45,130 nucleotides of DNA from Elusimicrobia bacterium GWF2_62_30 (GTDB lineage: Bacteria; Elusimicrobiota; Elusimicrobia; Elusimicrobiales; UBA9959). Positions 22,183-44,364 of this stretch are shown here, piece after piece. The notes under the pieces were generated by a model, which worked only from the letters and a program-made list of their open reading frames with translations, had not been told where the DNA came from and ran no database searches. Within the stretch, counting starts at the first letter, position 1. Every line of letters starts with the position of its first letter. The stretch spans positions 1 to 45,130 of the forward strand of contig MGUK01000050.1 in the NCBI GenBank assembly GCA_001799995.1. The letters run 5' to 3'. Position numbers and translations under genes: made by a program.

Positions 22183-22557
22183 TCAGGAGTCTTTTTCAAG
22201 CGTCAGCTCGACGTGCGCGGCTTTTTCCGGGCCCACGGCCGACCTGGCTTTTACCGTGAAACGCCCGCCCGAGCAGGAAAAGGCCAGCAGCGCGTCGATA
22301 CGCTCTCCGGGCTTCACTTCCCTCAGGAACTTGGCCCTATCCACCGACACTATGCGCAGGGGCGCCCCTGTGAACCGCTCCATGACGGCCCGCGCCATCT
22401 CCAGCTCCAGCACCCCGGGGACCAGCGGCCTTCCCGGGAAATGCCCGGAGAACACGGCGAGCTCCGCCGGGAAGATGAAGACCGCTTCCAGCTCTCCCTC
22501 CCGGGGATTCCGGAGTTCTTTTAGGCCCTCCGCCGCGTCGCTTTTAAGGTCATTCAT
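22183..22557 (-). CDS. Hot-dog 3-hydroxyacyl-ACP dehydratase (ApeI/FabZ-like)
   Basis: A 124-residue FabA/FabZ-type dehydratase. FSGHFPGRPLVPGVLELEMA carries the catalytic His (39) and the helix Glu (about 53). It should remove water from the 3-hydroxyacyl-ACP formed in each extension round, giving the double bonds of the polyene. The second dehydratase at 26525 is of a different subtype, and such pairs are usual in aryl polyene clusters. It is the last gene of the cluster; its start overlaps the lipoprotein gene upstream by 8 bases. Confidence 0.85.
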   Translation of the reverse strand: MNDLKSDAAEGLKELRNPREGELEAVFIFPAELAVFSGHFPGRPLVPGVLELEMARAVMERFTGAPLRIVSVDRAKFLREVKPGERIDALLAFSCSGGRFTVKARSAVGPEKAAHVELTLEKDS

Positions 22558-23251
22558 AAAATAATTTTTCCGGGAGTTCTCCCGGCTCCAGCTTCAGCAG
22601 GTCGGCCTCGAGCTTCAGCTGCGCCTTCTTGTTCTCCACGACTATATGGCGCGGAACTTTCCGCTCCACTCCGGGGACGGCGGCATAATCGGAATACTCC
22701 ACCTCGTAAGCCGCGCCGTTGCGCAGCACGGTGAACCGCTCCGCCTGCTCGCCGCCCTGCTCCTCCGCGAAACGGAATTCTTCCTGAACCCCGTTCTTGC
22801 GCAGGTAGGCCAGTATGACCGACGCCCCCCGCTTCGAGACGACCACCGGCGCGTCGGCGGCAGGCGGCAGGAACAGCAGTTCCACCAGGTCCGCGGCCGG
22901 CCCGGTGAGCCAGCTTTTGCGTATGGCCCCCGGTTTCTTTATTACGCGCACGGCCTTGCCGGGAACCGCGGCCAGTTCGAAAAGGCTGCCGCCGAATTCG
23001 CCGAACGCGGCGGCGCGCCAGGCGCCGCGGCGCTTTACCAGCAGGTAGCCGGTAAAGTCGAACTGGCGCCCGTAAAAAGACAGCGTGACCCTGTGCTGGG
23101 CCCGGTAAGCCGCCGGGTAGGGCCCCTGCACCCTTTTCCTGAACCCGTCCACCACCACCTGGTCGCCGAACGGGATCCCGGTCAGGCGCGGCGCGAAGCA
23201 GGCGCCGAGCAGGCAGGGCAGGAGTAAAAGGGACAGGCGGCTTTTCTTCAT
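22550..23251 (-). CDS. DUF3261-like outer-membrane lipoprotein
   Basis: A 233-residue protein with a lipoprotein signal (LLLLPCLLGAC, lipid Cys18). The body resembles DUF3261 lipoproteins: a beta-rich fold with VTLSFYGRQFDFTGYLLVKRRG, AFGEFGGSLFEL and a late stretch VPRHIVVENKKAQLKLEADLL. The fold type is like LolB, and a LolA-like gene directly precedes it. Proteins of this pair occur in aryl polyene clusters and probably carry the finished lipid across the periplasm to the outer membrane (inference from family context). It overlaps the LolA-like gene by 4 bases. Confidence 0.75.
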   Translation of the reverse strand: MKKSRLSLLLLPCLLGACFAPRLTGIPFGDQVVVDGFRKRVQGPYPAAYRAQHRVTLSFYGRQFDFTGYLLVKRRGAWRAAAFGEFGGSLFELAAVPGKAVRVIKKPGAIRKSWLTGPAADLVELLFLPPAADAPVVVSKRGASVILAYLRKNGVQEEFRFAEEQGGEQAERFTVLRNGAAYEVEYSDYAAVPGVERKVPRHIVVENKKAQLKLEADLLKLEPGELPEKLFYE

Positions 23252-23916
23252 TTCTGTTCCGGCGCGAACAGGCCGGCGGGGAGCTCGGGATTGAGCCGCA
23301 CGTCCTCGAAGCTTATCAGCGTATAGTCGCTCTCCCCCTCGCGGATCCTGACGGAACTGACGCTGTCGAGGGCCGGAGTGAATTTCATCTCGATAGCGGG
23401 GATGAACTGCCGCATCTTTTTGTTCTTCGGCACCAGCACCAGCCGCGCCGGCTCCCCGGAATAGACCGCCAGCTCGTATTTCCCGGCCTGCTCGGAGAAC
23501 TTACCCTGGTGCAGGCCGGCGATCTGGCCGAACACCTCGAAAAGCGCGTCGGCGACAGGCAGTTTAAGCCTGCGCGGCTGGCCCTTTATATAATCGTATT
23601 TAGCCAGCTCCCGCCCGTTCATGATCAGGAGGGAGTGGAACGGGGAGGTTATCTCCCAGCGCAGGCTGGACGGCACCGAGAAAGCGAACGTCCCGCTGGA
23701 GGTCAGCACGTCCTGGAAAAGCAGCAGGTGTTTTTCCTGCACGAACCTGGCCTGCAAGGTTCGCGAAGCTTTAAGGTTCCCCTCCAGTTTGCCCAGGAAT
23801 TCCTTCTGCTGCGCGGGCGAAAACCTGACCGACACGGAGGAGTCGGCGGCGTGAGCGGTCCAGGCCGGGAACAGGCCCGCTAAAGCCAGCAGAGGCAAAA
23901 GGAATATTTTTTTCAT
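23248..23916 (-). CDS. LolA-family periplasmic carrier
   Basis: A 222-residue LolA-like protein with a signal peptide (MKKIFLLPLLALAGLFPAWTAHA). The mature part has the LolA pattern: SRTLQARFVQEKHLL, SGTFAFSVPSSLRWEITSPFHSLL and NGRELAKYDY. LolA-type proteins carry hydrophobic cargo through the periplasm; here it may ferry the polyene lipid rather than general lipoproteins, since it is embedded in the biosynthetic operon next to a LolB-like DUF3261 lipoprotein (inference). Its start overlaps the upstream ketosynthase-like gene by four bases. Confidence 0.82.
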   Translation of the reverse strand: MKKIFLLPLLALAGLFPAWTAHAADSSVSVRFSPAQQKEFLGKLEGNLKASRTLQARFVQEKHLLLFQDVLTSSGTFAFSVPSSLRWEITSPFHSLLIMNGRELAKYDYIKGQPRRLKLPVADALFEVFGQIAGLHQGKFSEQAGKYELAVYSGEPARLVLVPKNKKMRQFIPAIEMKFTPALDSVSSVRIREGESDYTLISFEDVRLNPELPAGLFAPEQK

Positions 23917-25064
23917 AAGCTCCTGAGCAAAGCCGCGCTATGGGACCCCGAGCGGGAAATGGTATAGGACAGGACGGTGCTGACAGGGCCGGGAGCTGCG
24001 GTTCCGTTAGGGAACAGGCCGGGCGGGACCGTGCCGGAGCTCAGCAGCAGCGCCGCCAGCCCGAAGCCGAAGCCGGAGGCGGCCTTGTAATCCCCGCAGT
24101 ACTGCTTGAAGCTGCCGTGCGGCACAAGACGGCCGGCGCGGCGGCCGAGTTCCGCCGCCGTCCGGAGATAGACCGCGTCGAGCGCGCAGTCGCCGTCGGC
24201 GCCGGACAGGAGCAGGCCGGTCTCCTCCGGCTTTACCCCGCAGGCAGCCAGGAGGCCGCAGAGAAAATCGGCCGAGGCGGCCGGGTCCAGATAAGTGGAG
24301 GCGTCGTAGCGGTATCTCGCGGTCCTCGCGCCCAGCACCTTCGCTAAAGCGCCCTCGGCGGCGCCGGAGGAAAGCAGGAAGACGGCCGCGCCCTCGCCCG
24401 GGCTGGTGCCGCGGGTAGTTCCCCCGGCCAGCGGCCGCAGCGGTCCGGCGCCGTCCTTCCACAGGCCCTTTTCCTCCGCCGCAAGCAGGTGGTAATAGTT
24501 AAGTTCGTCGGCGCCGCAGACCACGGCGCGCTTTAACCGCCCTTTGGCGAGAGCGGAAACGCCGTGGCCCAGGGCCGCGTCGAAAGAAATGTCCCGGTGA
24601 GCGACCGTGATGTTCTCCCCCTTAATGGCATATTCCAGCGCCAGGCTGGAAGCCGCGGCATTATGCACCGAATTGATGAAATTAGCGGGCTTGGGAAATT
24701 CCTCGCCGTTGAGCACCATATTCTCGAGGAAAGCCGCCGTTTCACCCATCGACCCCAGGCCGGTCCCCATATAAACCCCGGTATCCCCGGCGCAGGCCTC
24801 GGCGGAAAGGCCCGCTTTTTTAGCCGCGAGCAGGGTCATGGTCTGAAGCCGGCCCAGGCGGCGCAGCTTCATCGGGCCGAGCAGGGCCTTCGCCTCGGAC
24901 AGGTCGCAGCGGTAGCCGGCGGTTTTCAACGCCGCTTTTTGTCCCGGATAATCAAGCGGTACCGGCGCCGCGGGCACGGCCGAAAGCAGCTGCTCCGGAG
25001 AGCCGCCGGCCGGGCTTACAAGCCCCGCTTTAAGTATATAAGCGCCGGTATTCTCGTTCTCCAT
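23913..25064 (-). CDS. Catalytically dead ketosynthase (chain-length-factor-like)
   Basis: A 383-residue thiolase-fold protein related to beta-ketoacyl-ACP synthases but without the active residues. The nucleophile Cys is replaced (AHRDISF, probably Asp158), the HGT histidine is lost (SGADGDC), and the second His is Asp (CGDYKAASG, Asp325). The fold signature SPGEGAAVFLLSS is kept. It lies one base after an intact ketosynthase gene, so it should be the KS-beta or chain-length-factor partner of that enzyme and help set polyene length (inference from type II polyketide and aryl polyene systems). Confidence 0.82.
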   Translation of the reverse strand: MENENTGAYILKAGLVSPAGGSPEQLLSAVPAAPVPLDYPGQKAALKTAGYRCDLSEAKALLGPMKLRRLGRLQTMTLLAAKKAGLSAEACAGDTGVYMGTGLGSMGETAAFLENMVLNGEEFPKPANFINSVHNAAASSLALEYAIKGENITVAHRDISFDAALGHGVSALAKGRLKRAVVCGADELNYYHLLAAEEKGLWKDGAGPLRPLAGGTTRGTSPGEGAAVFLLSSGAAEGALAKVLGARTARYRYDASTYLDPAASADFLCGLLAACGVKPEETGLLLSGADGDCALDAVYLRTAAELGRRAGRLVPHGSFKQYCGDYKAASGFGFGLAALLLSSGTVPPGLFPNGTAAPGPVSTVLSYTISRSGSHSAALLRSL

Positions 25065-25065
25065 G

Positions 25066-26262
25066 TTATTGCGCCTGTCCGGCCGCCGAAAGGATAAGGC
25101 AGTTATTATTGCCGCCGAAACCTAGCGAGAGGCTCATAACGTTCGAGAGCTTGCAGGCGGCAAAATCCCGCTGGATCTTTACGGGGCAGGCCGGGTCCTG
25201 CCGGTTCAGGCCGGCATTGGGCGGGACGGCCTGGTGCTGCAGCGCCAGTACGCAGGCCAGCGTCTCGATGGCCCCGGCCGCCGCGAACGTGTGGCCGAAC
25301 GCCCTTTTTATAGACGAAACCGGGGGCGTCTGTTCTCCGAAAACGGCTTTTATGGCGGCCGCTTCGGCGCGGTCGTTGTCCGGGGTGGCGGTGCCGTGCG
25401 CGCTTATATACTGGATGTCGCCGGGAGAAAGCCCGGCGCCGGCCAGCGCGCCGCGCATGGCCCGCTGTATGCCTTCCCCTTCGGGCGAGGGCGCGGCGGC
25501 GTGGTGGGCGTCGCAGGTGGCGGCCCAGCCGGAGAGGCGCGCCAGCACCCTGGCGTTCCTGCGGGCGGCCGACCCGGCGCTTTCAAGCGCCAGCACGGCG
25601 GCCCCTTCGCCGAGCGACATGCCCTTCCTTTCCTCGTCGAAAGGGCGGCAGCCCTGCGGGTCCATGAGCAGCAGCGAACCGAAGCCGTTGACCGTAAGCC
25701 GGCTCAGGGAATCCGTGCCGCCGGCCAGCATGACGTCCGACTCGCCGGAAAGTATCAGCTCGGCCGCCAGGCAGATGGCGTTCTGTCCCGAGGAGCAGGC
25801 GGTGGAGATGGTTTCGCAGGGTCCGTACAGCCCCAGCGTGCCGGCCACCGCGTCGGCCGACGAGGCGCACTCGTGGAAATGGAGAAGTTCCGTCTCGCGG
25901 GCGCCGGTGCGCAACAGGCGCTCGAGGAAAACCTCGCTGTCGGCCATGCCGCCCACGCAGGCCCCGAGGATGACCCCGGCCCGGGCGGGATCGGGCAGCC
26001 CTCCGGGGAAACTTTGGGAGAACGCCTGCCTGGCCGCGGCCACGGCAAGATGGTCGGAGCGGGAACCGCCCCCCAGGCCGCTCAGCGCGGGTAGGTCCGC
26101 CTGGAGCTGGCCCGCCGGGATGCCGGCGTAGCGGGCCGAAGGAAAAAGAGAGAAAGGCCTGAGCCCGTCCCGCCCCTCCTTCAGCGCCTGCCAGGTTTCC
26201 CCGACGGAAGCCCCGGCCGCGGAAAGTATTCCGGCGCCGGTTATTACGACTTCCCTCTTCAT
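25066..26262 (-). CDS. Beta-ketoacyl-ACP synthase (FabF-like)
   Basis: A 398-residue condensing enzyme with an intact Cys-His-His triad: Cys156 in TISTACSSGQNA, His289 in SAHGTATPDNDRAE and His324 in SIKRAFGHTFAAAG, with Lys319. It extends the ACP-bound chain by two carbons from malonyl-ACP. The adjacent dead ketosynthase is its likely partner. It overlaps the ACP gene upstream by 4 bases. It is one of three active condensing enzymes in the cluster. Confidence 0.92.
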   Translation of the reverse strand: MKREVVITGAGILSAAGASVGETWQALKEGRDGLRPFSLFPSARYAGIPAGQLQADLPALSGLGGGSRSDHLAVAAARQAFSQSFPGGLPDPARAGVILGACVGGMADSEVFLERLLRTGARETELLHFHECASSADAVAGTLGLYGPCETISTACSSGQNAICLAAELILSGESDVMLAGGTDSLSRLTVNGFGSLLLMDPQGCRPFDEERKGMSLGEGAAVLALESAGSAARRNARVLARLSGWAATCDAHHAAAPSPEGEGIQRAMRGALAGAGLSPGDIQYISAHGTATPDNDRAEAAAIKAVFGEQTPPVSSIKRAFGHTFAAAGAIETLACVLALQHQAVPPNAGLNRQDPACPVKIQRDFAACKLSNVMSLSLGFGGNNNCLILSAAGQAQ

Positions 26263-26516
26263 TTTGCGGATTTTTTTTCGGTGATATATTCGGCTATGCT
26301 GCGTACCGAAGTCAAAGCTTTGCGTCCTTCGTCCATGTTCACGATCTTGATGCCGTAATTGGCGTTTATCATCACTACCAGCTCCAGCACATCTATGGAG
26401 TCGAGGCCGAGCCCTTCCCCGAACAGCGGGGCGTCGGTATCGATCTCATCCGGGCTTATCTCCAGCTTTAGGCTGGTCACGATATGCTGCTTAAGTTCTT
26501 TTATCAGGTTTTCCAT
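26259..26516 (-). CDS. Acyl carrier protein
   Basis: An 85-residue carrier protein with the phosphopantetheine site Ser40 in GLGLDSIDVLELVV. It carries the growing chain as a thioester. A second, different ACP is at 29248, so the cluster has two carriers, as many aryl polyene clusters do. The gene overlaps the ketosynthase gene by four bases. The ribosome site AGGGAA is inside the short gap after the dehydratase gene. Confidence 0.92.
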   Translation of the reverse strand: MENLIKELKQHIVTSLKLEISPDEIDTDAPLFGEGLGLDSIDVLELVVMINANYGIKIVNMDEGRKALTSVRSIAEYITEKKSAK

Positions 26517-26524: not shown

Positions 26525-26953
26525 CTATTTCCCGTCGTGCAGATAGAGCTTCAGCTCTCCCCCGGCGATCCGCCGCGCGCCGGAAAGTATCTTCGCTTCC
26601 ACTATGAACATCGGTCCGAGGTTCCTGGTGACCTCCACTTCAATGCGCAGCGGCTCGTCCAGCTCCGGCCGCCTGTTGAAAGAGAACAACGAGACCCCCG
26701 CGAGAAAACCCAGGCCGGAAGCCCGGGCGCCTGATCTTGCGAGATACCCGAACATGGCCGCCACGGTCTGCGCCGCGCATTCTATCAGCGCGGGCTCGGC
26801 GACCGCGCCGCCGCTTACCCCGTAATCTCCCCGCCGAAACGTCTTGGCGGCGGCACCGCGGGTTTCAGAGGCTTCCAGCAGCGCGTCTATCATCACCACC
26901 GGAGCCCGGTGGGGCAGAAGTTCGAGAACGGGGGTATCCTGGAGGGCCGGCAT
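26525..26953 (-). CDS. Hot-dog dehydratase (ApeP-like)
   Basis: A 142-residue protein of the ApeP / FabA-like hot-dog group. The catalytic His15 is in LLPHRAPVVMID and a Glu (about 58) is in EPALIECAAQTVA. It should dehydrate 3-hydroxyacyl-ACP intermediates together with the enzyme at 22183. In characterised aryl polyene systems two dehydratases of these two types occur. It starts 15 bases after the radical SAM gene. Confidence 0.83.
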   Translation of the reverse strand: MPALQDTPVLELLPHRAPVVMIDALLEASETRGAAAKTFRRGDYGVSGGAVAEPALIECAAQTVAAMFGYLARSGARASGLGFLAGVSLFSFNRRPELDEPLRIEVEVTRNLGPMFIVEAKILSGARRIAGGELKLYLHDGK

Positions 26954-26968: not shown

Positions 26969-28333
26969 TTATCGGCAGAGATATTCCCATAGGGGCCCGC
27001 TGCGGCCGCGCGCCCGCAGGCGCTGCATGAGCTTGAGGTTCTTCTCATAGTCGCGGGGCAGCAGCCAGTTCCCTGCGCCGGCGGTCTCTTGCGCTACCAG
27101 CTTTTCAAGGGAAGCGGAGTCGAAGCCGGGGGCGAAGTAAAAAGCCGGTTCCAGGCCGTAGCCGCCGGGCCCGGCGCCTTTTTCGGCGGCCGCCAGGCGG
27201 GCCAGCGGCGTGCCCGGGAAAATGCGCATGCCCATCGCGGCGAAAAAAACGGTCAGCTTCTGTTCGCGCGTGCGCGCCATGGTCTCTTTTATGGTGTCTG
27301 CGGTCTCGCCGGGGCCGCCGAAGATGAGGTAATGCGCGGACGGTATGCCGGCCTTGAAAGCTTCCGCCCCGGCTTTCGAAATATCCGCGTAGCAAAAGTT
27401 CTTGCCGTAGGCCTTCAGCACCGGGTCGGAGAAGGAATCCGAGCCGAACTCTATGTGGGTAAGGCCGGCGCGCTTGAGCGCGGCCAGGTACCCGCCGTCC
27501 ACGGCGGCGGGCGAGAAGAAGGCGCCCCATTTCGCCGGCGTGCCCAGTTTTATCAGCGCTTCAGCCAGCGCCAGCTCCTTCTCCCTGTCCATATTGAAGA
27601 CCGAATCGGTGAAAAAAACGTAGTCCACGCCGCAATCTTTGCGCAGGCGGGCCACCTCGTCGGCCACTGCCTCCGGGTTAAAGGCATAGGCCGAGCGGCC
27701 GTCTATCAGCGGGTAAGTGCAGTAGACGCAGTTCAGCGGGCAGCCGGTCTTGGTCTGCACGCCAATCATCCCGGAGCTGCGCCAGTAATACTGCAGGAGG
27801 TCCTTTTGATGGTCCGCCCCGCCCGGCGACACCGGGGGGCGGGCGCCGCCCGCCAGGGCCGGGCGCTTTTGGGAATAGACGTAGCCAAGCGCGGCGGGGT
27901 CCTTGCCCAGCGCTAAGGCGTCGGCCAGCGCGCAAAGGGCTTCCTCCCCCCTGCCCGCTATGCCGTAATCGGCACCGAGCCGGGCTACCAGTTCCGCGGG
28001 AAAGATGGAGAAGCCGCTGCCGCCGAGGACGACGGGCGCGGACGAGCAGGCCCGGAGGCCGGCCACCAGCGCGGCATAGCCGTCTATGTAGGAGCGCTGG
28101 GTGCAGGAATCGGTATTGTCTATATTGCGCAGCGAGACGCCGACCAGGAAGGGTTCGTCCAGGCGGACTTTTTCGGCCAGCTCCTTCAGGGAGCCGGTCA
28201 GCATATCGTACTGTGAAACCGCGTAGCCGCGCGTCTTCAGCGCGGCCGCGAGCCTCGGCAGCGCCGCCGGGTAGGCCGGGTAGGGTGAAACCTCGGTATT
28301 GGCCGAAACGAGGAGGATCTTTTTCTTATCCAT
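26969..28333 (-). CDS. B12-binding-type radical SAM protein
   Basis: A 454-residue protein with an N-terminal cobalamin-binding-type Rossmann domain (ILLVSANTEVSPYPAYP, then VVLGGSGFSIFPAELV with GIAGRGEEAL) and a radical SAM core. The cluster-binding motif is CPLNCVYC (Cys198, Cys202, Cys205), and a gly-rich YLIFGGPGET follows. Members act as methylases, ring-forming enzymes or other C-C chemistry catalysts. A few related proteins are annotated as lipid-biosynthesis B12/radical SAM enzymes, which fits this setting. What it does here is unknown; candidate roles are C-methylation or remodelling of the polyene or its fatty tail. It overlaps the acyltransferase gene by 8 bases. Confidence 0.85.
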   Translation of the reverse strand: MDKKKILLVSANTEVSPYPAYPAALPRLAAALKTRGYAVSQYDMLTGSLKELAEKVRLDEPFLVGVSLRNIDNTDSCTQRSYIDGYAALVAGLRACSSAPVVLGGSGFSIFPAELVARLGADYGIAGRGEEALCALADALALGKDPAALGYVYSQKRPALAGGARPPVSPGGADHQKDLLQYYWRSSGMIGVQTKTGCPLNCVYCTYPLIDGRSAYAFNPEAVADEVARLRKDCGVDYVFFTDSVFNMDREKELALAEALIKLGTPAKWGAFFSPAAVDGGYLAALKRAGLTHIEFGSDSFSDPVLKAYGKNFCYADISKAGAEAFKAGIPSAHYLIFGGPGETADTIKETMARTREQKLTVFFAAMGMRIFPGTPLARLAAAEKGAGPGGYGLEPAFYFAPGFDSASLEKLVAQETAGAGNWLLPRDYEKNLKLMQRLRARGRSGPLWEYLCR

Positions 28334-29246
28334 GCGATTCCCAGAAAGGGTAAAAATTGAACCACTGCAGCGGGTTCTCCGCCAGGAACGCTTCCAGGTG
28401 CAGGGCGAAGTGCGCCGCGTACTTTTTCAGCGGTTCCTTTTCGGCGCCGGTCCCTTCCAGCGCCGGCAGTACCGGCGGCCAGGCCTTGAGGCTGTAGGCA
28501 TACGCGCCGGTACGCGCCGCGAAGGTATGGATGAGGGGCGCGCCGGCCGCGGCGGCCACGGCATAAGGCCAGAGCGGGAAAGCGGCCTCGCCGCCGAGGA
28601 AAGGCAGCTTCGCGGTGCGCCCCCCCAGGGTCCTATCCCCGTGCATGGCGACCACCTCGCCCCGGCCCAGCGCTTCCACCAGGGCCAGGCTGTCGCCCGG
28701 AGAGCCGCTGACTCCGATCACGCGGATATTGGAGGTCTTTACGGACCGCTGCAAAAGCCTGCGCACGTTCTCGGCCTCTCCTTCGAACCTGACCACGTTG
28801 ACGGTTATGTTCTTGCCGCCCAGCAGAGACACGGCCGCTTCCCAGCCGCCCGCGTGCGCCCCCAGGAGCACCAGGCCTTTGCCGGCCGCCGCCGCGGCCG
28901 TGATATGGGAATAGCCCTCTTCGGCGACCCTGAAACGGCTCGGGTCGTCGCCCACGGCGATGCGGTCCAGCAGCACCTGGCCGAAACAGAAAAAATGGAG
29001 GTAGGAATAATAAAAACGGCGCAGCGCCCCGCACTTGAACTGCCGGCGCAGGTAGTCAGAAGAGGCTTTAAAGGCTTCGGGGGCGAAGAAGAGGAAGTAG
29101 AAGGAGACGGGCAGCAGCAGCAGGTAGGCGGCCCGGAGGCCCAGGAGGCGCAGGACCCTGATGAAGAGCCAGTTCCCGAAATACCCGCCCCTCGTCCTGC
29201 CTGTCCAGGGGCGGCGGCTTTCCTGCGCTTTTGTTAGCGGGTCCAC
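28326..29246 (-). CDS. LpxL/HtrB-type lysophospholipid acyltransferase
   Basis: A 306-residue membrane-anchored acyltransferase. The HxxxxE motif is GAHAGGWE (His131, Glu136), followed by VAMHGDRTLGG, matching the late acyltransferase family that acylates lipid A. The N-terminus has a hydrophobic segment (AAYLLLLPVSFYFLFF). It probably joins the polyene acyl chain to a lipid or glycolipid acceptor (inference from aryl polyene lipids). The start is uncertain: the GTG at 29246 abuts the ACP stop and its only GAGG lies too close, so a start further inside is possible. Confidence 0.83.
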   Translation of the reverse strand: MDPLTKAQESRRPWTGRTRGGYFGNWLFIRVLRLLGLRAAYLLLLPVSFYFLFFAPEAFKASSDYLRRQFKCGALRRFYYSYLHFFCFGQVLLDRIAVGDDPSRFRVAEEGYSHITAAAAAGKGLVLLGAHAGGWEAAVSLLGGKNITVNVVRFEGEAENVRRLLQRSVKTSNIRVIGVSGSPGDSLALVEALGRGEVVAMHGDRTLGGRTAKLPFLGGEAAFPLWPYAVAAAAGAPLIHTFAARTGAYAYSLKAWPPVLPALEGTGAEKEPLKKYAAHFALHLEAFLAENPLQWFNFYPFWESHG

Positions 29247-29247: not shown

Positions 29248-29496
29248 TCAGGGATTTTTCAGCTTGTTGATGCAATCGTAAAGCTGGTCGAGCGTGCGTA
29301 TTTCGCGGGCCTCGGCTTCCTGTATCCTGCAGCCGAACTTCTTTTCCATCGTGACGACGATGTCCACCGCGTCCAGGCTGTCCAGGCCGAGCTCCTCGTG
29401 AAGTTTGGTCCCGGGTTCTTTGAGGCTGGCCGGGTTCAGTTCGAACTGTTCCGCCAGGATCTTATTAACCTCTTCGACGATTTCTTCGCGTGTCAT
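29248..29496 (-). CDS. Acyl carrier protein
   Basis: An 82-residue ACP with the phosphopantetheine serine at Ser40 (ELGLDSLDAVDIVV). It differs from the ACP at 26259 in sequence, suggesting division of labour, for example one for the aryl starter and one for elongation (inference). A good ribosome site (GGAGGG) precedes the ATG. It overlaps the upstream ketosynthase gene by 4 bases. Confidence 0.92.
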   Translation of the reverse strand: MTREEIVEEVNKILAEQFELNPASLKEPGTKLHEELGLDSLDAVDIVVTMEKKFGCRIQEAEAREIRTLDQLYDCINKLKNP

Positions 29497-31485: not shown

Positions 31486-31526
31486 AAAATGTCCTTAACA
31501 CCTTTTGCGATAGACTGCCGGCATTC

Positions 31527-31706: not shown

Positions 31707-31754
31707 TCATCCGCGGGTTTGCCAAGGTCCCGGGCGGTCCGTCCCTCCAAAGAC

Positions 31755-35914: not shown

Positions 35915-38900
35915 TCAAGCCGGTTTTTCGCAGATGAACACCAGGTTGGAACGCCAGCCCAGGTCGTTTACGGCCTCACTGCAATTAAAGCCTATTTTCC
36001 GCAGCAGCCTCAAATAGTTTTCCCTGTTGCCGGGGACCACCCCGTGGCGGCTCTTGTTATGCCCGATGAACACGGCGAACAGTTCGGCAAGACGCACGGC
36101 CCCGCCCTTAACGCTTCCGTCGGCGCAGTTCTCGCGCAGGATCAGGCGGCCGCCGGGCTTCAGGCAGGCAAAGGTCTTGAGCAGGATCTTTTCCTGCTCG
36201 GCCTCCGGCCAGTAATGCAGCACGTCTATGAGCAGCGCGGTATCGGCGGGCGGGAAAGCGCTGTCGAGGATATCGCCCAGCTCCGAAGTCATCCGCTCCG
36301 GGGCGACGGCGGACTTGCGCGCCGCGGCCACCTTGTCGGCGTCGAAATCTATGCCGATGATACTGCGGCGGGTGGACTGCGCGGCCAGGATGTTGGACAT
36401 CAGCCCGTAACCCTGGCCCAGGTCCAGGACCACGCCTTCGCGCGGCACCAGGCCGGCTATCTTCCCAAACAGCGGGTCCAGGCGCAGCTTCCAGGCCGTG
36501 TACTGCTCGATGTAAGGGCCCAGGTAGTTATAGCGCTGGCGCATCCTGCTGAAAAATCCCGGCCCGTCGCAGGCGATGGCCAGGACCCTTTCATACTCTT
36601 CTTCCATCAGCTTCCGGGCGGCACGGGCCGTCTCCCCCGGGTCCGCGGCGGAGAGGCGGGGCATCACGCTCACCACCAGGCCGTGATCGGGCAGCCAGAA
36701 ACCGGTCTTCGGAATGCAGGAACGCGTTTCGCACATGACCACCGGCAGCAGTTCCGCGCCGGCGCGCGCGGCTATCTCGAAGGCGCCTTTTTTGAACCGG
36801 CTTATCTGCCCGGTATCCGAGCGCGTTCCTTCCGGGAAGAACATCAGGAAATCGCCCTCCCGCAGGCATTGCGCGGCCTTTTCAAAAACCTCCGCTGTAT
36901 TCTCCCCGTCGGACAGGATATAGCCCGCTTCGCGTATCACCGGGCCCATGAAGAAAGAATTCCACACCCAGGGTTTGACCACCATGCGCAGGTCGGCGGG
37001 CAGGTTCAGGGCGCAGATGATGTCGATCACGGACTGGTGGTTGCAGATCAGCACCGCGGGCTTGGCGAAAGACTCAGGCCCGGCGTTGAGGAAAATGCGC
37101 TTACCGTACGGGCACAGGCTGAAAAGGAGACGGCAGCAGGTACGCAGGAAAGACTGCAGGGCCTTGCGGCGCAAGGCGGGCTCCCCGGCGTGGCGAAGCT
37201 GCAGCCACGGCATGAAAAAGAGGCGGCAGTAAACGAGCGCCAGGGCAAAGATCCCTATCAGGCCAAGGCCGACGGCCGCCGAAACCAGCGTCGGGGTGCC
37301 TTGCCGGCCGTTGCCCCAGAGCAGGAAGCGCATGGCTATCGGTGGCACTATCACCGCCGCCAGGAGACCGTTGACCATCACCAGGCAGGCCGCCAGGCCC
37401 AGGGAGCGCAGCGCCGGGTGCTGGGCCGCCAGCAGGGCCGCGAAGCCGCCTATGGCCGTAACCGCCGAGATGGTAAGAGCACCGCCGGCCACGCCGATAT
37501 CCTCGCTAGAGTCCTTATACCGGTCCAGGAACGCGCTGACGACGAAAATGACGTAGTCTATGCACATGCCGAAGATGAACAGGGAGAAGATATTGTTCAT
37601 CAGGTCCACCCGCAGCCCGAACCAGCCCATGAGGCCCAGGCTCCAGAGCGCGTCCAGGGCGAGCACCGCTATTACCAGCAGCGTCATCTCCAGCCTGCCG
37701 TAAACCAGGAGCAGGATGACCAGCGAGCCCGCCAGGGCGCACCAGATGAACAGCTTTAAACCCTCTTTCACCAGTTCCGAGATGCGCCGCGCGAAGGCGT
37801 TCCCCTCGTAGAGATAAGCGTCGGGCAGGGCGGCCAGGACCTGCCCGGAGAGCTGCGCGTGCCCGGCCGCGGCCTGCACCTCCGTCAGGATGAAAACTTC
37901 CCCTTCTTTTTCGGAGATGAAGCCCTCCGTGACGGCGCCGAGAGCGCCCTTTTTCAATTCCTCCGGCGGGAGCGTAGCCGCCTTGCGCTCCAGTTTCCGG
38001 TAGAACGGCTCGAAAGCGGTGGTGGAGAAACCTTCCCCGGCCCCGGCCTTCCCCAGCCTGCTCTTGAGCAGGCGCACCCTGGCCGGGGTCCAGACCGCCC
38101 GCCAGCGCGCGGCATTTTCAAGCTGCGTGCCCAGGGCGGGAGCTATCGGGGAGATGGAGGTGAACCTTTTTACGGAGCCAGAGCGCTCAAGTTCCCGGAG
38201 CAGGGCATAAAGCCGGTCGTTCTTGAGCCGGGCTTCCTCCATGGACGCCCCCCTCACGGCTATCAGGGTATTCTTTAGGAACTTGCCGCCCCACCTGTCC
38301 GAAACGGCCTGTTCATCCCCGGCGGTGGCGGGACGCATCCCGTTCATGCGGCGCAGGTCACCGTCGAAGGTCAACCTGGGCAGGCCGAAAGCGCAGAACA
38401 GGGAAAAGACAAGGACGAAACCGAGGCAAAGCCCGGTGTGGCGGGCGTGCCACTCGAAAAAGCCGCGCCACAGGCTTGCCAGGGGCAGGATGGCCTTCTG
38501 CCGCGCGGGCCGGCGCAGCGGGAGCAACTGCGGCAGCACGATGACGGAGAAGAGCGCGGCGCCGGTGATGCCCAGCGCGGCGAACGCCCCCAGCTGCCGC
38601 TGGCCCGGGGACGAGGACAGGAGCAGGCACAGGAAAGCGGCGATGGTGGTGGCCGAGGCCATCACGACCGCCTCGATGATCACGGAAAGATGCCTGCCGA
38701 GAGGTTCCGGCCCTTCTTCAAGGCGGTCGAAATTGTCGTAGCGGTAGAGGATATGCACGGAGCAGTCCACCGCTATGCCGATAAGGGCCCCGCCGAAACC
38801 GGCGACTATCGCTGAGATCTTATCCGAGAAAAGCGCGAAAACCCCGGCGGCGAGGATGCCGCCGAAAGCCACCGGCAGCAGTCCGGCCAGCGCCAGCGAA

Positions 38901-39754
38901 AACCGGCGGTAGACCAGGAACGTGAATACGAGGATCAGCAGAGTGGACGCCGCCATGGTGAGCGTGATGTCGTGCCGCATCATGTCCTGGTTCTCGACGG
39001 TGATGCGCGGCGCGCCCGTATAACGTATCCTCACTCCCGGGTGCGCCGCGGCGGCGGCCGCCCTGGCCTTATCCACGAAAGCTATCATCTCCGCGGCCCT
39101 GGCCCCCTGGGCATAGCCGTCGGCCGGCAGGGCGGCCATCAGCAGATGTTCCCCGCCGGGGCTGCAGATGCGGCCGTCGCGCAGCTCCGCGCCGTCGTAG
39201 AAGCCCGCCATTTTGGAAAGGAAGACCGCCTGCAGGCCCAGCGGGTCGCCGCGAGCCATCCCGGCGAGCGGCCCCGCCGCCGGCGCCTCCATCAGCATTT
39301 TTTTATAGCCGGCCAGCTGCCCGCGCAGCTTGTCCTCCTCCAGCAGCGGGAGCAGGCGTTTCTCCTCTCCCGCCCCGAACAGCGCCGGCATATGCCCCTG
39401 TATCAGCTCCAGGGCGGCCAGGCCTTCTTCCTGCTGCACCCGGTACCTGATATTTTTAAAACACCCGGAAGCCGAGAGCTTGCCGTAAAGCTCGTCCGCG
39501 GCCGCGCAGTTTTCGGTCCAGCCGCCTTCCCCCACGTCGAAGAACAGCCTGTTCTGCAGGCCGAAGCGCGAAACTATGGCGTGAAAATCGTCGATGGTCT
39601 TGTCCCCGGCGGGCAGCATGTCGAACACGTTCTCCCTGAGGGAAAGGCGCGACGCCAGCCCCAGGCACAGCAGGGAGGCCACCAGCACCGAACCGGCCAG
39701 GAGGCCGCGCCGCGGGCGCAGCGCGCCGAAGGCCCACTGGAATATTTTATGCAT
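35915..39754 (-). CDS. MMPL/RND exporter-PlsC acyltransferase-methyltransferase fusion
   Basis: A 1279-residue protein joining three functions. Residues 1 to about 815 are an MMPL/RND-type exporter with two membrane-domain repeats (about 265-410 and 665-815) and two large periplasmic regions. Residues about 880-1060 are a PlsC-type acyltransferase with NHQSVID (His906, Asp911) and FPEGTR (973-978). Residues about 1100-1279 are a class I SAM methyltransferase with VLDLGQGYG (1109-1117). No stop or frameshift separates them. It would load, acylate and methylate a polyene lipid while exporting it (inference). The start ATG lies 8 bases inside the glycosyltransferase gene. Confidence 0.88.
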   Translation of the reverse strand: MHKIFQWAFGALRPRRGLLAGSVLVASLLCLGLASRLSLRENVFDMLPAGDKTIDDFHAIVSRFGLQNRLFFDVGEGGWTENCAAADELYGKLSASGCFKNIRYRVQQEEGLAALELIQGHMPALFGAGEEKRLLPLLEEDKLRGQLAGYKKMLMEAPAAGPLAGMARGDPLGLQAVFLSKMAGFYDGAELRDGRICSPGGEHLLMAALPADGYAQGARAAEMIAFVDKARAAAAAAHPGVRIRYTGAPRITVENQDMMRHDITLTMAASTLLILVFTFLVYRRFSLALAGLLPVAFGGILAAGVFALFSDKISAIVAGFGGALIGIAVDCSVHILYRYDNFDRLEEGPEPLGRHLSVIIEAVVMASATTIAAFLCLLLSSSPGQRQLGAFAALGITGAALFSVIVLPQLLPLRRPARQKAILPLASLWRGFFEWHARHTGLCLGFVLVFSLFCAFGLPRLTFDGDLRRMNGMRPATAGDEQAVSDRWGGKFLKNTLIAVRGASMEEARLKNDRLYALLRELERSGSVKRFTSISPIAPALGTQLENAARWRAVWTPARVRLLKSRLGKAGAGEGFSTTAFEPFYRKLERKAATLPPEELKKGALGAVTEGFISEKEGEVFILTEVQAAAGHAQLSGQVLAALPDAYLYEGNAFARRISELVKEGLKLFIWCALAGSLVILLLVYGRLEMTLLVIAVLALDALWSLGLMGWFGLRVDLMNNIFSLFIFGMCIDYVIFVVSAFLDRYKDSSEDIGVAGGALTISAVTAIGGFAALLAAQHPALRSLGLAACLVMVNGLLAAVIVPPIAMRFLLWGNGRQGTPTLVSAAVGLGLIGIFALALVYCRLFFMPWLQLRHAGEPALRRKALQSFLRTCCRLLFSLCPYGKRIFLNAGPESFAKPAVLICNHQSVIDIICALNLPADLRMVVKPWVWNSFFMGPVIREAGYILSDGENTAEVFEKAAQCLREGDFLMFFPEGTRSDTGQISRFKKGAFEIAARAGAELLPVVMCETRSCIPKTGFWLPDHGLVVSVMPRLSAADPGETARAARKLMEEEYERVLAIACDGPGFFSRMRQRYNYLGPYIEQYTAWKLRLDPLFGKIAGLVPREGVVLDLGQGYGLMSNILAAQSTRRSIIGIDFDADKVAAARKSAVAPERMTSELGDILDSAFPPADTALLIDVLHYWPEAEQEKILLKTFACLKPGGRLILRENCADGSVKGGAVRLAELFAVFIGHNKSRHGVVPGNRENYLRLLRKIGFNCSEAVNDLGWRSNLVFICEKPA

Positions 39755-40928
39755 CCCGGTACCTCAGGACGGCGCGCACCAGGCTCAGGGCCGCGTAGGA
39801 GAGCAGGCCGCCGGCCAGGCCCGCGGCCACGCCCAGGACCACGCTGCCCAGCAGCCATTCCGGGAGCCGCTCGGCGGCCAGCTGCCGCAGCCCCCCGTCA
39901 AAAGCCGGGGAAAAGTCCACGGCCCCGGTCAGGAGCGCGTGGCCGAGCACCAGCGCGAAGTAAAAAATGAAAGGCGCTATCGCCGGGAAAGAGATGTTGC
40001 TGGCGGCCACGGCTATGAAGCTGTTAAGCCGCAGGCGGGCGGCCACCAGGGAGGCGGTGAGCATCTGGAAGCCCCAGATAGGGAGTATCCCCAGCATCAT
40101 CCCGAAGCCTATCGAGAGGGAAGTATTGAGCGGGGCGGAAACCGCCTCGGTCAGAGTGGAGCGCGTGACAACGCGCAGCTTTTTTAAAAAGGAAACCCCT
40201 TCAAGGGACCTGTCGCAGGAAACCCGCTGAAGCGGGGCGGGCAGGAAAAAGCGCATGAAAAAGAAAAGCGTGTAGAGGTGCGAGATCCGCATGAAGTCAA
40301 CGAACGGGCGGAAATGGGAGACCCGCTCCCCCGCCGGCAGGTAGACGGCGGTGACAGGCACGGCCCTGAGCGGCACGCCCAGCCAGGCGGCCTTCACCAG
40401 CACCTCCACTTCAAGATCGTAGCGCCTCTTGTCCAGCTTCAGCCGGTCTATGGCGGCCAGCGGGTAGCTCCGGAAGCCGCACTGCGTATCGGGCAGGCTC
40501 GCGCCGGATTCGAGCCAGAACCAGAAATCGGAAAATTTGTTGGCGAAGCGGCTGCCGAACGAAACCCTGGCGCCGACGCGCTTGCGCGAGCCCACGAAAA
40601 GGGCTTCGGGCTCCCGGGCGGCGGCCCCGAGGAAAGCCGGGATATCCTCCGGCAGATGCTGGCCGTCGGAATCCATCGTTATGGCGCGGTCGAAGCCGAG
40701 GGCCAGGGCCTTGGCGAAACCGCTGAGCAGCGCGGCCCCTTTACCCCGGTTCTTGTCGTGGCGCAGCACCGTGACGCCGGGCAGTCCTGCGGCGGCGCGC
40801 TGCGTCCCGTCGGTGGACCCGTCGTCCACGAAGATCACGTCCGGCAGATAAGCCAGCGCGCCCCGGATGACGGCGGCGGCCGTTCTCCCGTTATTATAAG
40901 CGGGAATTATTACGCAGGTACGTCCCAT
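39747..40928 (-). CDS. Family 2 glycosyltransferase with DUF2062 tail
   Basis: A 393-residue protein. The N-terminal GT2 domain shows VIIPAYNNG, FVDDGSTDGT (35-42) and TMDSDGQHLPEDI with the metal-binding DxD-like Asp. The C-terminal third is a DUF2062-like membrane region (about 235 onward, TSLSIGFGMMLGILPIWGFQ). The ATG at 40928 is used because it overlaps the thioesterase stop by one base (TAATG) and gives the usual GT2 start MGRTCVIIPAYNN; a start 24 codons upstream would lie inside the thioesterase gene. It probably glycosylates the polyene lipid or a lipid carrier (inference). Confidence 0.88.
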   Translation of the reverse strand: MGRTCVIIPAYNNGRTAAAVIRGALAYLPDVIFVDDGSTDGTQRAAAGLPGVTVLRHDKNRGKGAALLSGFAKALALGFDRAITMDSDGQHLPEDIPAFLGAAAREPEALFVGSRKRVGARVSFGSRFANKFSDFWFWLESGASLPDTQCGFRSYPLAAIDRLKLDKRRYDLEVEVLVKAAWLGVPLRAVPVTAVYLPAGERVSHFRPFVDFMRISHLYTLFFFMRFFLPAPLQRVSCDRSLEGVSFLKKLRVVTRSTLTEAVSAPLNTSLSIGFGMMLGILPIWGFQMLTASLVAARLRLNSFIAVAASNISFPAIAPFIFYFALVLGHALLTGAVDFSPAFDGGLRQLAAERLPEWLLGSVVLGVAAGLAGGLLSYAALSLVRAVLRYRDA

Positions 40929-41392
40929 TAGTTTCTTTTTTCCAGCGCGGCCCTGACCCGTGCCAGCAGCGGCTCCGGCGAGACGAAGAACATCTCCCAC
41001 GTGCCGGGCTTCACGGCTACCTGCAGGGTCTGGCCTTTTGCCAGCAGACGGCCGCCGTCTTTTTCCGTTATGCGGTAAGCGATCTTCAGCCGGTGCTCCG
41101 TCTCCAGCAGCACGGCCCGGCAGATAACGCGCATGCCGTAGCGCAGGGGCGACACGTACCGGCAGGAGGATTCGGCGACGGGCCAGACATAGCCGGAGTC
41201 CCGCATCTCCTCCACGTCGAAGCCGATGGAACGCATCAGCTCCGTGCGGGCCAGTTCGAAATACTTGTAGTAGTTGCCGTGCCAGACCACGCCCAGCGGG
41301 TCCAGGTCGCAGAACGGGACCTGCGCCTCTATCTCGGCGCTCAGCTCCCGCGCGGGCGCGGTCTCGGCGGCGGGGTTAATTTTATCGCTCAT
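40928..41392 (-). CDS. Acyl-CoA/ACP thioesterase (YbgC/4-HBT-like)
   Basis: A 154-residue hot-dog thioesterase. FCDLDPLGVVWHGNYYKYFE carries the catalytic Asp31 and His38 region of the 4-hydroxybenzoyl-CoA thioesterase / YbgC type. In this cluster it could release the aryl or polyene acyl chain or proofread ACP loading. Thioesterases of this type are common in aryl polyene clusters. It overlaps the ammonia-lyase by 11 bases and the glycosyltransferase by one base. Confidence 0.88.
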   Translation of the reverse strand: MSDKINPAAETAPARELSAEIEAQVPFCDLDPLGVVWHGNYYKYFELARTELMRSIGFDVEEMRDSGYVWPVAESSCRYVSPLRYGMRVICRAVLLETEHRLKIAYRITEKDGGRLLAKGQTLQVAVKPGTWEMFFVSPEPLLARVRAALEKRN

Positions 41393-42926
41393 ATAATTTC
41401 CAGGCCCTGGCGTTGACCTGCGCCAGCAGCCAGCGCAGATCGTCTTCGAGCGCGCGGTCCTCTTCCACGAAGGGCACCTTCACGCGCACCGCGCGGATCA
41501 GCGCGGCCAGTTCCGGGGCCACCATGGCTTCCTTCAGCTCTTTTCTCCTCGCCCGCAGTTCGATGCCCTGCAGCGCGCCCAGCAGGGCGCCGACGGCGGC
41601 CTGCTCCGTCAGCTCCAGCACGCGCAGGCAGTCCCTTGCCGCGATCGTGCCCATGCTCACCTTGTCCTGGTTATGGCATTCGGTGGAGCGCGAGAAGACG
41701 CTGGCCGGCATGGTAAGCTTGAGCGCCTCGGCCGCCCAGGCGGAGGTGCCTATCTGCAGCGCTTTGAAGCCGTGGTTTATGGCCGCCCTTTCCTCCACCG
41801 CTCCGGACAGGTTGGAGGGCAGGCCGTGATTGGTGCGCTTGTCCACCAGCAGTTCCAGCTGGCGGTCGTGCAGGTCGGCCAGGTTCGCCACGGCCGTCTT
41901 CAGGCAGTCCATCGCGAAAGCTATGTGCCCGCCGTAAAAATGCCCGCCGTGCATCACTTTACCCTTCACGCCGTCTATGAGCGGGTTGTCGTTGGAGCTG
42001 TTAAGCTCCGTCTCTATCTGCGCGCGCATCCATGGCAGCGCGTCGGCCAGCACCCCGATTATATGCGGCGCGCAGCGCAGGGAATAGCTGTCCTGCAGGC
42101 GCGCCCCGGCGCCCCAGTAGCCGCGCATGGCCAGGTCCCGCCTTATCCAGGCGGCCACCTGCATCTGGCCGGGGTGAGGCTTGCGCTCGAACAGTTCCTC
42201 GTCGTAATGCGACGTATTGCCCTTCAGCGCTATCACGCACATGGCGGTTATGCGGCTTGAAAGGCGCTGCAGGTAAGCGGCTTTCTCGTAGGCCAGGCAG
42301 GCCAGCGCCGTCATCACGCTGGTCCCGTTCATCACCGCCAGGCCTTCCTTGGGCATCAGCTTCAGGGGCTTGAGGCCGCACTTCTTCAAAGCCGCGGCGG
42401 CGGGCAGGCGTTCGCCGCGGTAGAGCACGTCGCGCTCGCCCATCAGGGCCGCGGCGATATAGGAAAGCGGGGTAAGGTCGCCGCTGGCGCCCACGGAGCC
42501 TTCTTCGGGGATCAGGGGCAGGATGCGGTTGTTGATCAGGGCGGCCAGGTTCTCCAGCAGTTCCCAGCGCACGCCCGAATAGCCTTTCGACAGCGAGATA
42601 AGCCGCGCCGACAGTATGGCCAGGGTGGTTTTCTCGTCGAAGATCCGGCCCAGGCCGCAGCCGTGGTAGCGCACCAGCTGCCGGGGCAGTTCCTCTATCA
42701 GGTTCTCCGGCACTACGCGCTCCACCGACGCGCCGTAGCCCGTGTTGATGCCGTAAAGCTGACGGCCGCTCTTCCAGCCGCGGCGGATGAATTCCACGCC
42801 CTTGTCCACCGCTTCGCGCAGCTTCGGGTCGTCGGGCAGCGCGGCGCGCGCGTTCCCGCCGGCCAGCGCCGTCACGTCCTCTATTTTCCAGTTCCCGCGC
42901 CCGGCGAATATAGTTTTATTCCGCAT
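41382..42926 (-). CDS. Aromatic amino acid ammonia-lyase (HAL/PAL/TAL family)
   Basis: A 514-residue MIO-dependent lyase. The MIO-forming triad is Ala147-Ser148-Gly149 in GSVGASGDLTPLSY, and the catalytic Tyr64 is in GINTGYG. The substrate-selectivity pair is Tyr87-His88 (VRYHGCGLG). Histidine lyases usually have Ser-His and tyrosine lyases often His-Leu, so the substrate cannot be fixed. The adjacent aryl-acid ligase makes Tyr to 4-coumarate or Phe to cinnamate likelier than histidine (inference). No hut genes are nearby. GGAGG lies 8 bases upstream of the ATG. Confidence 0.88.
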   Translation of the reverse strand: MRNKTIFAGRGNWKIEDVTALAGGNARAALPDDPKLREAVDKGVEFIRRGWKSGRQLYGINTGYGASVERVVPENLIEELPRQLVRYHGCGLGRIFDEKTTLAILSARLISLSKGYSGVRWELLENLAALINNRILPLIPEEGSVGASGDLTPLSYIAAALMGERDVLYRGERLPAAAALKKCGLKPLKLMPKEGLAVMNGTSVMTALACLAYEKAAYLQRLSSRITAMCVIALKGNTSHYDEELFERKPHPGQMQVAAWIRRDLAMRGYWGAGARLQDSYSLRCAPHIIGVLADALPWMRAQIETELNSSNDNPLIDGVKGKVMHGGHFYGGHIAFAMDCLKTAVANLADLHDRQLELLVDKRTNHGLPSNLSGAVEERAAINHGFKALQIGTSAWAAEALKLTMPASVFSRSTECHNQDKVSMGTIAARDCLRVLELTEQAAVGALLGALQGIELRARRKELKEAMVAPELAALIRAVRVKVPFVEEDRALEDDLRWLLAQVNARAWKLYER

Positions 42927-44364
42927 TTAGAGACCTCCGGCCTGCCGGCTGATTGAAAACTTTAGAGATATCCGCGCGGGATATCTTCCCCTGTGAATTG
43001 AGCGGGATGGAAGCCGCGTACCTGAAAAACCGCGGCAGCGTGACCGCGTCGAAATGCCCCGAAAGGAAACGCCTGAACTCCCTGGCCGCCGCCGGCCGTC
43101 CGCCGGCCGCGAGGTTTTCCTTCCCGGCCGGGTTAAGCACTAGCAGCGCGCCGATAAATGCCCGGCCCGGGGGGCCGTCTTCCAGCACCGACAGCACGGC
43201 CGCGGCCACCCAAGGGTGCCCTTTCAGCCGTCGCTCCATCTCGTCGAGGGAGAGGCGTTTGCCGGCTACCTTCACCACCCTGTCCACGCGGCCCGCCGAA
43301 CCAAAACGGCCGTCCGGCAGCACTTCTCCCCTGTCCCCCATGGCGCGCCAGCCGCCGGACAGCGGGGGACTTACGAAAGGCGAAGAAACCCGCAGCCTGC
43401 CGCCGCGGGAAGCGGAAACTCTCACTCCGGGCAGCGGCGCCCAGAGCGGGGAAGCCTCCGGCCCCGACTGCACGCGCCAGCCCACGCCGCCGGTCTCGGT
43501 GGAGCCGAAAACCTCCCGCACAGGGAGGCCCCAGCGGGCGCGTATCGCCAGCGCCGCCTCCGCGGCGAGCGGCGCGCCGGAGGAAAAGACGGCGCGGCAG
43601 CCGGGCGGCGGGTTGATATCGGCCCCCGGCGAGCAGACCCGGTTAAGGTGGGCCGGGGAGCTTACCAGGCAGACGGCGGGCGGCAGCGGGCCGCCCGAGG
43701 GCAGTTCGTCCCAGAGCAGCGGGGTTTCGGAAATGAAAGGCCGGCCGGAGCAGAGCGGCCAGAACAGGCGGAAAAGGAGGCCGTAGATATGCTGGTGCGA
43801 GACCGTGGCCAGCACGGCGCTGTCGCCCACGGCGGGGCCGAAAGTCCTTTCCAGCGCCGCCAGCTCTTCCTCTATATTGGCCAGCGTCTTGGGAACGCCC
43901 TTGCGCCCGCCGGCGGAGCCCGACGTGTAAAGCCACAAGGCGGACCTGCCGCTGTCGAGGTCCTTCCACTCCCAGTCGCCGGAGAACGCGGCGGGCGGCA
44001 GCACTACCATCCCGCCGGGGCCGGGCACGTCGCCGAGCATGCCGCGGATACCGGTGGTCAGCTCCTCCAGGCTCCCTTTCTGGAGATTCGGGGGCAGCAC
44101 CGCGGTATTGCCGGTCTGCCACAGGGCGCACAGGCTTACGGCAAAAGCGTAGCTGGAGTTGGCGGCCGCCAGCCACCGCCCGCGCGGCCTGCCGTCGAGT
44201 TCCCGGCAGAGCCCGCCCACGTGCCTGGTAAAAATCCCCCAGTCCAGGGGCTTGCCGTTCTCAAAGGCCACAACGCTGCCCGGCGCGCGCCGGCCAGTCA
44301 TCAGGTGCGATAACTTTATGATCTTTTGTCGCGGAAGCGAAGCTAAAGCGGTACGTCCCCTCAT
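42916..44364 (-). CDS. AMP-dependent aryl-acid ligase (ApeH-like)
   Basis: A 482-residue ANL-superfamily enzyme that should activate an aryl acid and load it on the cluster ACP or CoA. The phosphate loop is YTSGSAGGRKG (146-156), the A5 motif FGSTETGG (286-293), the ribose-binding Asp is in MGDRGE (343-344) and the catalytic Lys470 is in NSQGKIS. The length suits the short ApeH-type ligases. It is the first gene of the cluster. The ATG at 44364 is uncertain because no Shine-Dalgarno lies upstream and the -10 at 44374 is only 9 bases away. Confidence 0.88.
   Translation of the reverse strand: MRGRTALASLPRQKIIKLSHLMTGRRAPGSVVAFENGKPLDWGIFTRHVGGLCRELDGRPRGRWLAAANSSYAFAVSLCALWQTGNTAVLPPNLQKGSLEELTTGIRGMLGDVPGPGGMVVLPPAAFSGDWEWKDLDSGRSALWLYTSGSAGGRKGVPKTLANIEEELAALERTFGPAVGDSAVLATVSHQHIYGLLFRLFWPLCSGRPFISETPLLWDELPSGGPLPPAVCLVSSPAHLNRVCSPGADINPPPGCRAVFSSGAPLAAEAALAIRARWGLPVREVFGSTETGGVGWRVQSGPEASPLWAPLPGVRVSASRGGRLRVSSPFVSPPLSGGWRAMGDRGEVLPDGRFGSAGRVDRVVKVAGKRLSLDEMERRLKGHPWVAAAVLSVLEDGPPGRAFIGALLVLNPAGKENLAAGGRPAAAREFRRFLSGHFDAVTLPRFFRYAASIPLNSQGKISRADISKVFNQPAGRRSLNAE

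Follow-up and report, generated by a model that had tools for sequence, protein, structure and literature searches.

The window analysed here, an entire contig of 45,130 bases (C50), comes from a 2.9-Mb metagenome-assembled genome (MAG), 84% complete, of the phylum Elusimicrobia. On its minus strand, 20 open reading frames (ORFs) tile positions 22183-44364, and to judge from their sequences they form an aryl-polyene (APE) lipid locus of mixed type, uniting proteobacterial APE characters with those of the flexirubin clusters of Bacteroidota. The product is very probably a pigment-like aryl-polyene membrane lipid. We further consider it reasonably probable that this lipid is destined for the outer membrane and that a B12-binding radical SAM (rSAM) enzyme of the TIGR04072 family (26969-28333, minus strand, as are all genes of the run), a proposed C-methyltransferase, acts in its synthesis in place of ApeB. 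The latter is credited with methylation of the aryl head in the accessible part of the published account (PMC8253772).

One line of evidence for such a replacement is the mutual exclusion of the two enzymes. Across 340 genomes of the phylum, TIGR04072 matches at E <= 1e-60 occur in 30 and ApeB-like matches at E <= 1e-15 in 34, with no genome carrying both. An APE-type acyl carrier protein (ACP) is found at E <= 1e-8 in 65 of these genomes, among which 8 have the rSAM, 32 the ApeB-like enzyme, 25 neither and none both; the chance of observing no co-occurrence under independence is 0.0028, a value uncorrected for ancestry. No ApeB-type methyltransferase was matched in the window, nor in the remainder of its genome at E <= 1e-15. 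A strong ApeB-like ORF was likewise not found in 100 loci, 99 of them with an rSAM match, the two weak candidates reaching at best E 4e-7; these loci were picked by their rSAM, many of the fetched stretches end at contig ends, and a methyltransferase outside the fetched flanks would escape. ApeB is not constant in APE clusters, none being annotated in those of Pseudoalteromonas plasmids.

Within the family f21, whose clusters are syntenic, the exchange is apparent as well. Three genomes (G289, G292, G296) have the order thioesterase-rSAM-glycosyltransferase (GT2), and in twelve (G246, G247, G291, G293, G294, G295, G298, G299, G310, G312, G314, G316) nothing was mapped between the thioesterase and GT2 genes; four others (G297, G300, G301, G303), in which the junction was not scorable, are outside this count. 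The methyltransferase is present in 0 of the 3 rSAM genomes as against 10 of the 12 others, the exceptions being G247 and G293 (Fisher p 0.022). In G310, G312, G314 and G316 it directly follows the gene of the chain-length factor, and in the remaining six genomes it is on another contig, beside the FabG, FAD oxidoreductase and first ketosynthase (KS1) genes in G246 and beside the KS3 gene in G298. G291, which has no rSAM at the junction, shares its genus with G289 and G292.

A comparable exchange is suggested by the flexirubin-type cluster of the Persicobacter psychrovividus plasmid pPP6 (NZ_AP025298.1). Here the slot between the LpxL-type acyltransferase and the dehydratase gene DH1, which in the window houses the rSAM, is occupied by a class I methyltransferase 48% identical to E. 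coli ApeB. The best PDB sequence match of this protein is 3dp7, with SibL, presumably an aromatic C-methylase, next and far behind; in Aureispira the slot contains neither enzyme. The window rSAM itself shares with TsrM, the tryptophan C2-methyltransferase (PDB: 6WTE/6WTF), the full-length fold and the equivalent of Arg69, at 26% identity. These observations bear on an alternative under which the lack of ApeB is a matter of lineage and the locus is an ordinary aryl-polyene cluster whose rSAM performs an unrelated late tailoring reaction (oxidation, hydroxylation or methylation of the chain). The location of the rSAM in the slot of an ApeB homologue, the exchange of rSAM and methyltransferase in the syntenic f21 clusters, and the clear lead of TsrM among the sequence and fold matches all argue against this alternative, which we regard as possible though rather doubtful.

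Several observations also weigh against the proposed replacement of ApeB. The large exporter fusion of the locus (see below) retains a methyltransferase domain that could itself methylate, and the MAG is 84% complete. The 25 of 65 genomes with neither enzyme indicate that methylation is not an obligatory step, and the exclusion statistics both ignore ancestry and depend on thresholds set by the analyst. Moreover, the rSAM of G166 is a long branch falling among rSAMs from outside such clusters (support 88), and because of this grouping it should be discounted from the eight rSAM genomes. The family has other settings too, as no nearby ketosynthase (KS) was seen in 17 of 80 rSAM loci, including at least four whose stretches span the full 21 kb. 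Finally, the iron ligand Glu273 of TsrM is replaced in all 35 aligned members of the family (by Val in 31, Ala in 3 and Thr in 1), and the TsrM mechanism is therefore not transferable to this rSAM.

The window enzyme scores 409.6 bits (cut-off 360) against the TIGR04072 model, rSAM_ladder_B12, described as a 'lipid biosynthesis B12-binding/radical SAM protein'. The name and score of this model favour a reading in which the rSAM and the FAD oxidoreductase fold the polyene into rings to give an aryl ladderane-like lipid, and anammox clusters, in the accessible part of their description, also hold phytoene-desaturase-like FAD enzymes, an rSAM, a FabF devoid of its active site and a ligase (PMC2649909). 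Yet many Bacteroidota carry the same rSAM in their flexirubin-type clusters, and the three lyases scanned from such rSAM loci, at 791-842 bits, all score above the cut-off of 700 for FlxA. Within what is accessible of the relevant literature, the ladder-forming enzyme is stated not to be known (PMC9821293), and Desulfotalea, with a syntenic gene set, yielded no ladderanes (PMC2649909). The exclusion with ApeB, too, suits methylation better, and we accordingly judge ring formation to be very improbable. Its more explicit form, namely that TIGR04072 and the FAD oxidoreductase cyclise an ACP-bound aryl polyene into strained ladderane-like rings, so that aryl ladderane-type lipids would occur beyond the anammox bacteria, namely in Elusimicrobia and in many Bacteroidota, appears marginally less probable still. 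A ladderane assignment of the locus as a whole was rejected on account of the same rSAM sitting in flexirubin-type clusters.

When one genome per species was scanned, at least 525 relatives of this rSAM emerged, and the best 80 were retained as loci: within the fetched stretch, 31 have a lyase and at least one KS, 2 a lyase without a KS, 30 a KS without a lyase, and 17 no KS. None of these best 80 is a record titled with an anammox genus, and no match was found on plasmids at E 1e-20. The usual order in Bacteroidota is lyase-FabG-KS2-ACP1-LpxL-rSAM-DH1-thioesterase, followed by further genes, and this order, together with the lyases of FlxA level, shows the rSAM to be a regular component of many loci of flexirubin type and no oddity of the window. 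In a tree of 98 rows, the window rSAM groups with those of a genome of the same genus (G004, 81% identity) and one of the same family (G147, 63%) with support 99, and then with a Planctomycetota sequence (96). The LpxL profile used in mapping the loci was partly built from a G004 ORF that joins LpxL and rSAM and also scores rSAM ORFs, which were relabelled by their rSAM score. That 756-aa ORF (L065:6488-8758) is either a true fusion or an assembly slip. The TIGR04072-like loci without a mapped KS include L083, L113, L139 and L140 (full 21-kb stretches) and the shorter L080, L137, L143 and L153. In L085, L095, L096, L098, L112 and L146 (also L090), the opposite strand carries a further radical SAM ORF, together with an ACP-like ORF, upstream of the flexirubin-type lyase.

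The mixed character of the locus emerges from comparison with the annotated clusters of Pseudoalteromonas plasmids (APE), E. coli CFT073 (Ape), Persicobacter and Aureispira. On the proteobacterial side stand the lyase (57% to Pseudoalteromonas APE versus 33% to Persicobacter), the ligase (33% to Pseudoalteromonas and 27% to ApeH, with no match to the Persicobacter ligase at E 0.01), the thioesterase (41-42% versus 28-29% to the Bacteroidota clusters) and KS1 (45% to ApeR versus 35-39% to Bacteroidota KS). KS2 is instead closer to Persicobacter (52% versus 34% to APE), as are the GT2/DUF2062 protein (39% over 383 residues versus 34-37% over about 220) and the fusion, which among these clusters is matched over 1223 residues in Persicobacter only; the FAD oxidoreductase and C45 genes lean the same way, and the chain-length factor, too, is of the Bacteroidota flexirubin kind. 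The identities of FabG (48-51%) and ACP2 (42-48%) do not separate the two types. The Persicobacter cluster has a nearly identical inventory, so that neither the fusion nor the FAD oxidoreductase and C45 genes can count as new.

A ketosynthase tree of 28 rows conveys the same duality: KS1 groups with ApeR (99/97), KS2 belongs to a flexirubin-type clade (100/100) that is sister to FabB, KS3 joins ApeO and the flexirubin elongating KS (91/87, without the star of the tool), and the fourth protein falls among the chain-length factors (100/100). A primary fatty-acid synthesis reading was discarded in view of this tree. A preceding sequence-only reading of this DNA had proposed an aryl-polyene/flexirubin-class lipid derived from an aromatic amino acid, and gene content, KS phylogeny and the annotated clusters all support it; KS2, although sister to FabB, remains inside a fully supported cluster-KS clade, and the gene set matches known Ape and flexirubin clusters, albeit as a mixture of the two. 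The features typical of Ape systems are present in the form of active KS with an inactive partner, aryl starter supply, an APE-type ACP, a ketoreductase, a thioesterase, MMPL, LolA and, on weak matches, dehydratases. The placement of the rSAM and the fusion outside the core Ape set holds for E. coli Ape, but both recur in Bacteroidota clusters.

A true flexirubin cluster, whose aryl polyene would be esterified to a dialkylresorcinol, is a further candidate in view of the FlxB-like and LolA2-like genes and the contents common to the Persicobacter cluster. However, the lyase reaches 315.8 bits against the FlxA tyrosine ammonia-lyase equivalog model (cut-off 700), the FabG-type ketoreductase near FlxB (30760-31485) 319.2 bits (cut-off 340), and the LolA-type carrier (23248-23916; PF03548) 92.4 bits against LolA2_flexi (cut-off 125). 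The sole ORF with an ACP_syn_III_C domain (PF08541) found in the 84%-complete genome, in a search made without a dar-specific model, sits on a contig of polyketide synthase (PKS) genes. Hence this candidate appears very unlikely. The PKS region (G000:C85:41222-57073; L001, L002, L004, L158) has ketosynthase-domain ORFs of 2160 and 2327 aa, which probably encode a modular PKS; a KASIII-like ORF of 407 aa is close by.

At the 5' end of the run, an AMP-dependent, ApeH-like ligase (42916-44364; PF00501) is predicted to activate the aryl acid, and an aromatic amino acid ammonia-lyase (41382-42926; PF00221, 523 bits) is predicted to generate cinnamate or 4-coumarate from Phe or Tyr. The lyase retains ASGD and NQD motifs, the second of which we take to be the tyrosine/phenylalanine ammonia-lyase (TAL/PAL) form of motif 2. 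According to the accessible part of its description (PMC3992019), FlxA has a 1010-fold preference for tyrosine, with residues like those of histidine ammonia-lyase at motif 1 and those of TAL/PAL at motif 2. The motifs and this comparison point to Tyr as the likely substrate, with Phe also possible. Homologues at E <= 1e-80 are present in 9 of the 340 genomes, and the flexirubin lyase has no match among the viral contigs searched. In G166, the lyase match (C17:17716-19245, L164) and the APE-type ACP match (13631-13894) each contain one internal stop (TGA and TAG, respectively).

Chain building would fall to KS1 (33188-34408), KS2 (29493-30746) and the ApeO-like elongating KS3 (25066-26262; best PDB sequence match 9s5h_B), all identified by family matches, motifs and the tree, and to a proposed chain-length factor (23913-25064; best match 9s5h_C). 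The former three retain the Cys and both His motifs and the last shows none, in keeping with the predicted three active ketosynthases and one inactive. Both ACPs, ACP1 (29248-29496; PF00550; PRK05350, 68.3 bits, cut-off 65; GLDSL) and the APE-type ACP2 (26259-26516; PRK09184, 76.7 bits, cut-off 70), have the GLDS motif. The putative hotdog dehydratase DH1 (26525-26953) matches FabZ models far under cut-off (26.6 and 24.3 bits) and is 24% identical to a 'hotdog family protein' of the Pseudoalteromonas APE cluster and 24-27% to the same-slot gene of two Bacteroidota clusters, and the FabA-like DHz (22183-22557) scores 25.9 bits against PF07977 (cut-off 23). An ApeK-like 4HBT thioesterase (40928-41392; PF03061/PF13279) is 41% identical to ApeK.

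Among the tailoring and export genes, a GT2 glycosyltransferase with DUF2062 (39747-41000, by its domain matches) probably starts near 40928 rather than at 41000, to judge from its translation; its 73-base overlap with the neighbouring gene would then vanish. The fusion (35915-39754) joins an MMPL exporter, a PlsC-type acyltransferase (NHxxxxD, FPEGTRS) and a class I methyltransferase (SAM motif), a domain triple shared with L105, L119 and Persicobacter; it is full-length in 2 of 41 genomes searched (its own and G004), with partial matches in 10 others, and G147, outside this set, also carries it (66% over 1277 residues). The remaining members are a CrtI/CrtD-like FAD oxidoreductase of the amine-oxidase type (34405-35898; PF01593; best NCBIfam match CrtD, 103.9 bits, under the cut-off; 33% identical to the Persicobacter enzyme over 490 aa), a C45/AAT autoproteolytic acyltransferase/hydrolase (31755-33191; NF040521, 171.8 bits, cut-off 85), an LpxL/HtrB-type acyltransferase (28326-29246; PF03279) and a putative lipoprotein in the LolB/DUF3261 position (22550-23251), recognised by its lipobox-like N-terminus and position, with no Pfam or NCBIfam match. 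The C45 gene of G004 is split over two overlapping frames (L065:2257-4034) and may be broken or misassembled; mapping of the stretch fetched from G147 yielded none. The C45, CrtI, ligase and DUF3261 profiles were built on few sequences, and absence of these genes from the locus lists is a weak indication.

The run is compact, its neighbours overlapping or lying no more than 16 nt apart at 18 of 19 junctions. Only C45 and FabG are more widely separated, by a gap of 269 nt, and a simple scan of 31400-31900, around this gap, gave no promoter or terminator. Its single strand throughout and the matches of its genes to G004 and G147 at 61-95% identity argue that it is not a chance assembly. The 20 tightly packed genes described earlier are borne out, as are most of the assigned families by Pfam/NCBIfam matches and motifs; DH1 and the 'LolB-like' assignment are weakly based, and the FAD oxidoreductase and C45 genes had been missed from the inventory. 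No cobalamin riboswitch was found in the window, where Rfam at its gathering threshold gave tRNA only. A tRNA-Phe (18645-18718, minus strand) lies about 3.5 kb past the 3' end of the cluster, and a two-part glycine dehydrogenase (GcvPA/GcvPB type; 7685-10539) lies outside it.

The chemistry that we infer from the observed gene families, their relatedness and order, and the rSAM/ApeB exclusion would proceed as follows. The lyase would deaminate Tyr or Phe and the ligase activate the resulting aryl acid; KS1 and/or KS2 might start the chain, which KS3 and the inactive chain-length factor would extend iteratively on the ACPs, assisted by FabG and the hotdog dehydratases. The TIGR04072 enzyme would C-methylate the aryl head (the chain being a less likely target), and the thioesterase, acyltransferases and GT2 would release and anchor the polyene, with the FAD and C45 enzymes tentatively placed here. 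MMPL, LolA and the small lipoprotein could then carry the product outward. Among the openly licensed papers searched, we found neither a mention of TIGR04072, nor a reaction assigned to it, nor its reading as an ApeB substitute. The exclusion thus offers a family named for ladderanes a concrete candidate reaction, aryl-polyene C-methylation, in carriers that include isolates such as Flammeovirga. If true, the ladderane field should regard the family as a methylase relative and not as a presumed ring builder.

Of the known systems, the ladderane-candidate clusters of anammox bacteria and Desulfotalea, compared by the accessible description (PMC2649909), share the rSAM, a phytoene-desaturase-like FAD enzyme, a defective FabF, a ligase and a glycosyltransferase; the aromatic lyase, KS2 and the fusion set the window apart from them. 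The flxA-flxY cluster of Chitinophaga pinensis, in the accessible part of its description (PMC3992019), shares the lyase start, ligase, several KS, reductases, dehydratases, LolA, glycosyltransferase and exporter, and differs in that the window lyase is under the FlxA cut-off and no dar genes were identified, no dar-specific model having been used. The E. coli CFT073 Ape and the large Pseudoalteromonas plasmid clusters share the ligase, thioesterase, ApeR-type KS1, KS with chain-length factor, two ACPs, ketoreductase, LolA and MMPL, and their annotation includes neither an rSAM nor a C45 gene, a KS2 or a fusion of this kind; the lyase is common to the window and Pseudoalteromonas, whereas E. 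coli Ape lacks it and has ApeB. The openly licensed papers searched, so far as accessible, gave no account of such a cluster in Elusimicrobia. The Persicobacter pPP6 cluster shares the lyase, FabG, both ACPs, KS, chain-length factor, LpxL, DH1-position gene, thioesterase, LolA, DUF2062 GT2, MMPL-acyltransferase-methyltransferase fusion, FAD oxidoreductase, C45 and an AMP-binding gene. It differs in gene order, in additional KS-like and deacetylase genes, and in that the best match of the window KS1 is a KS2-type enzyme (35%). The APE class is a known one, to which this locus adds a new, mixed APE/flexirubin variant in Elusimicrobia.

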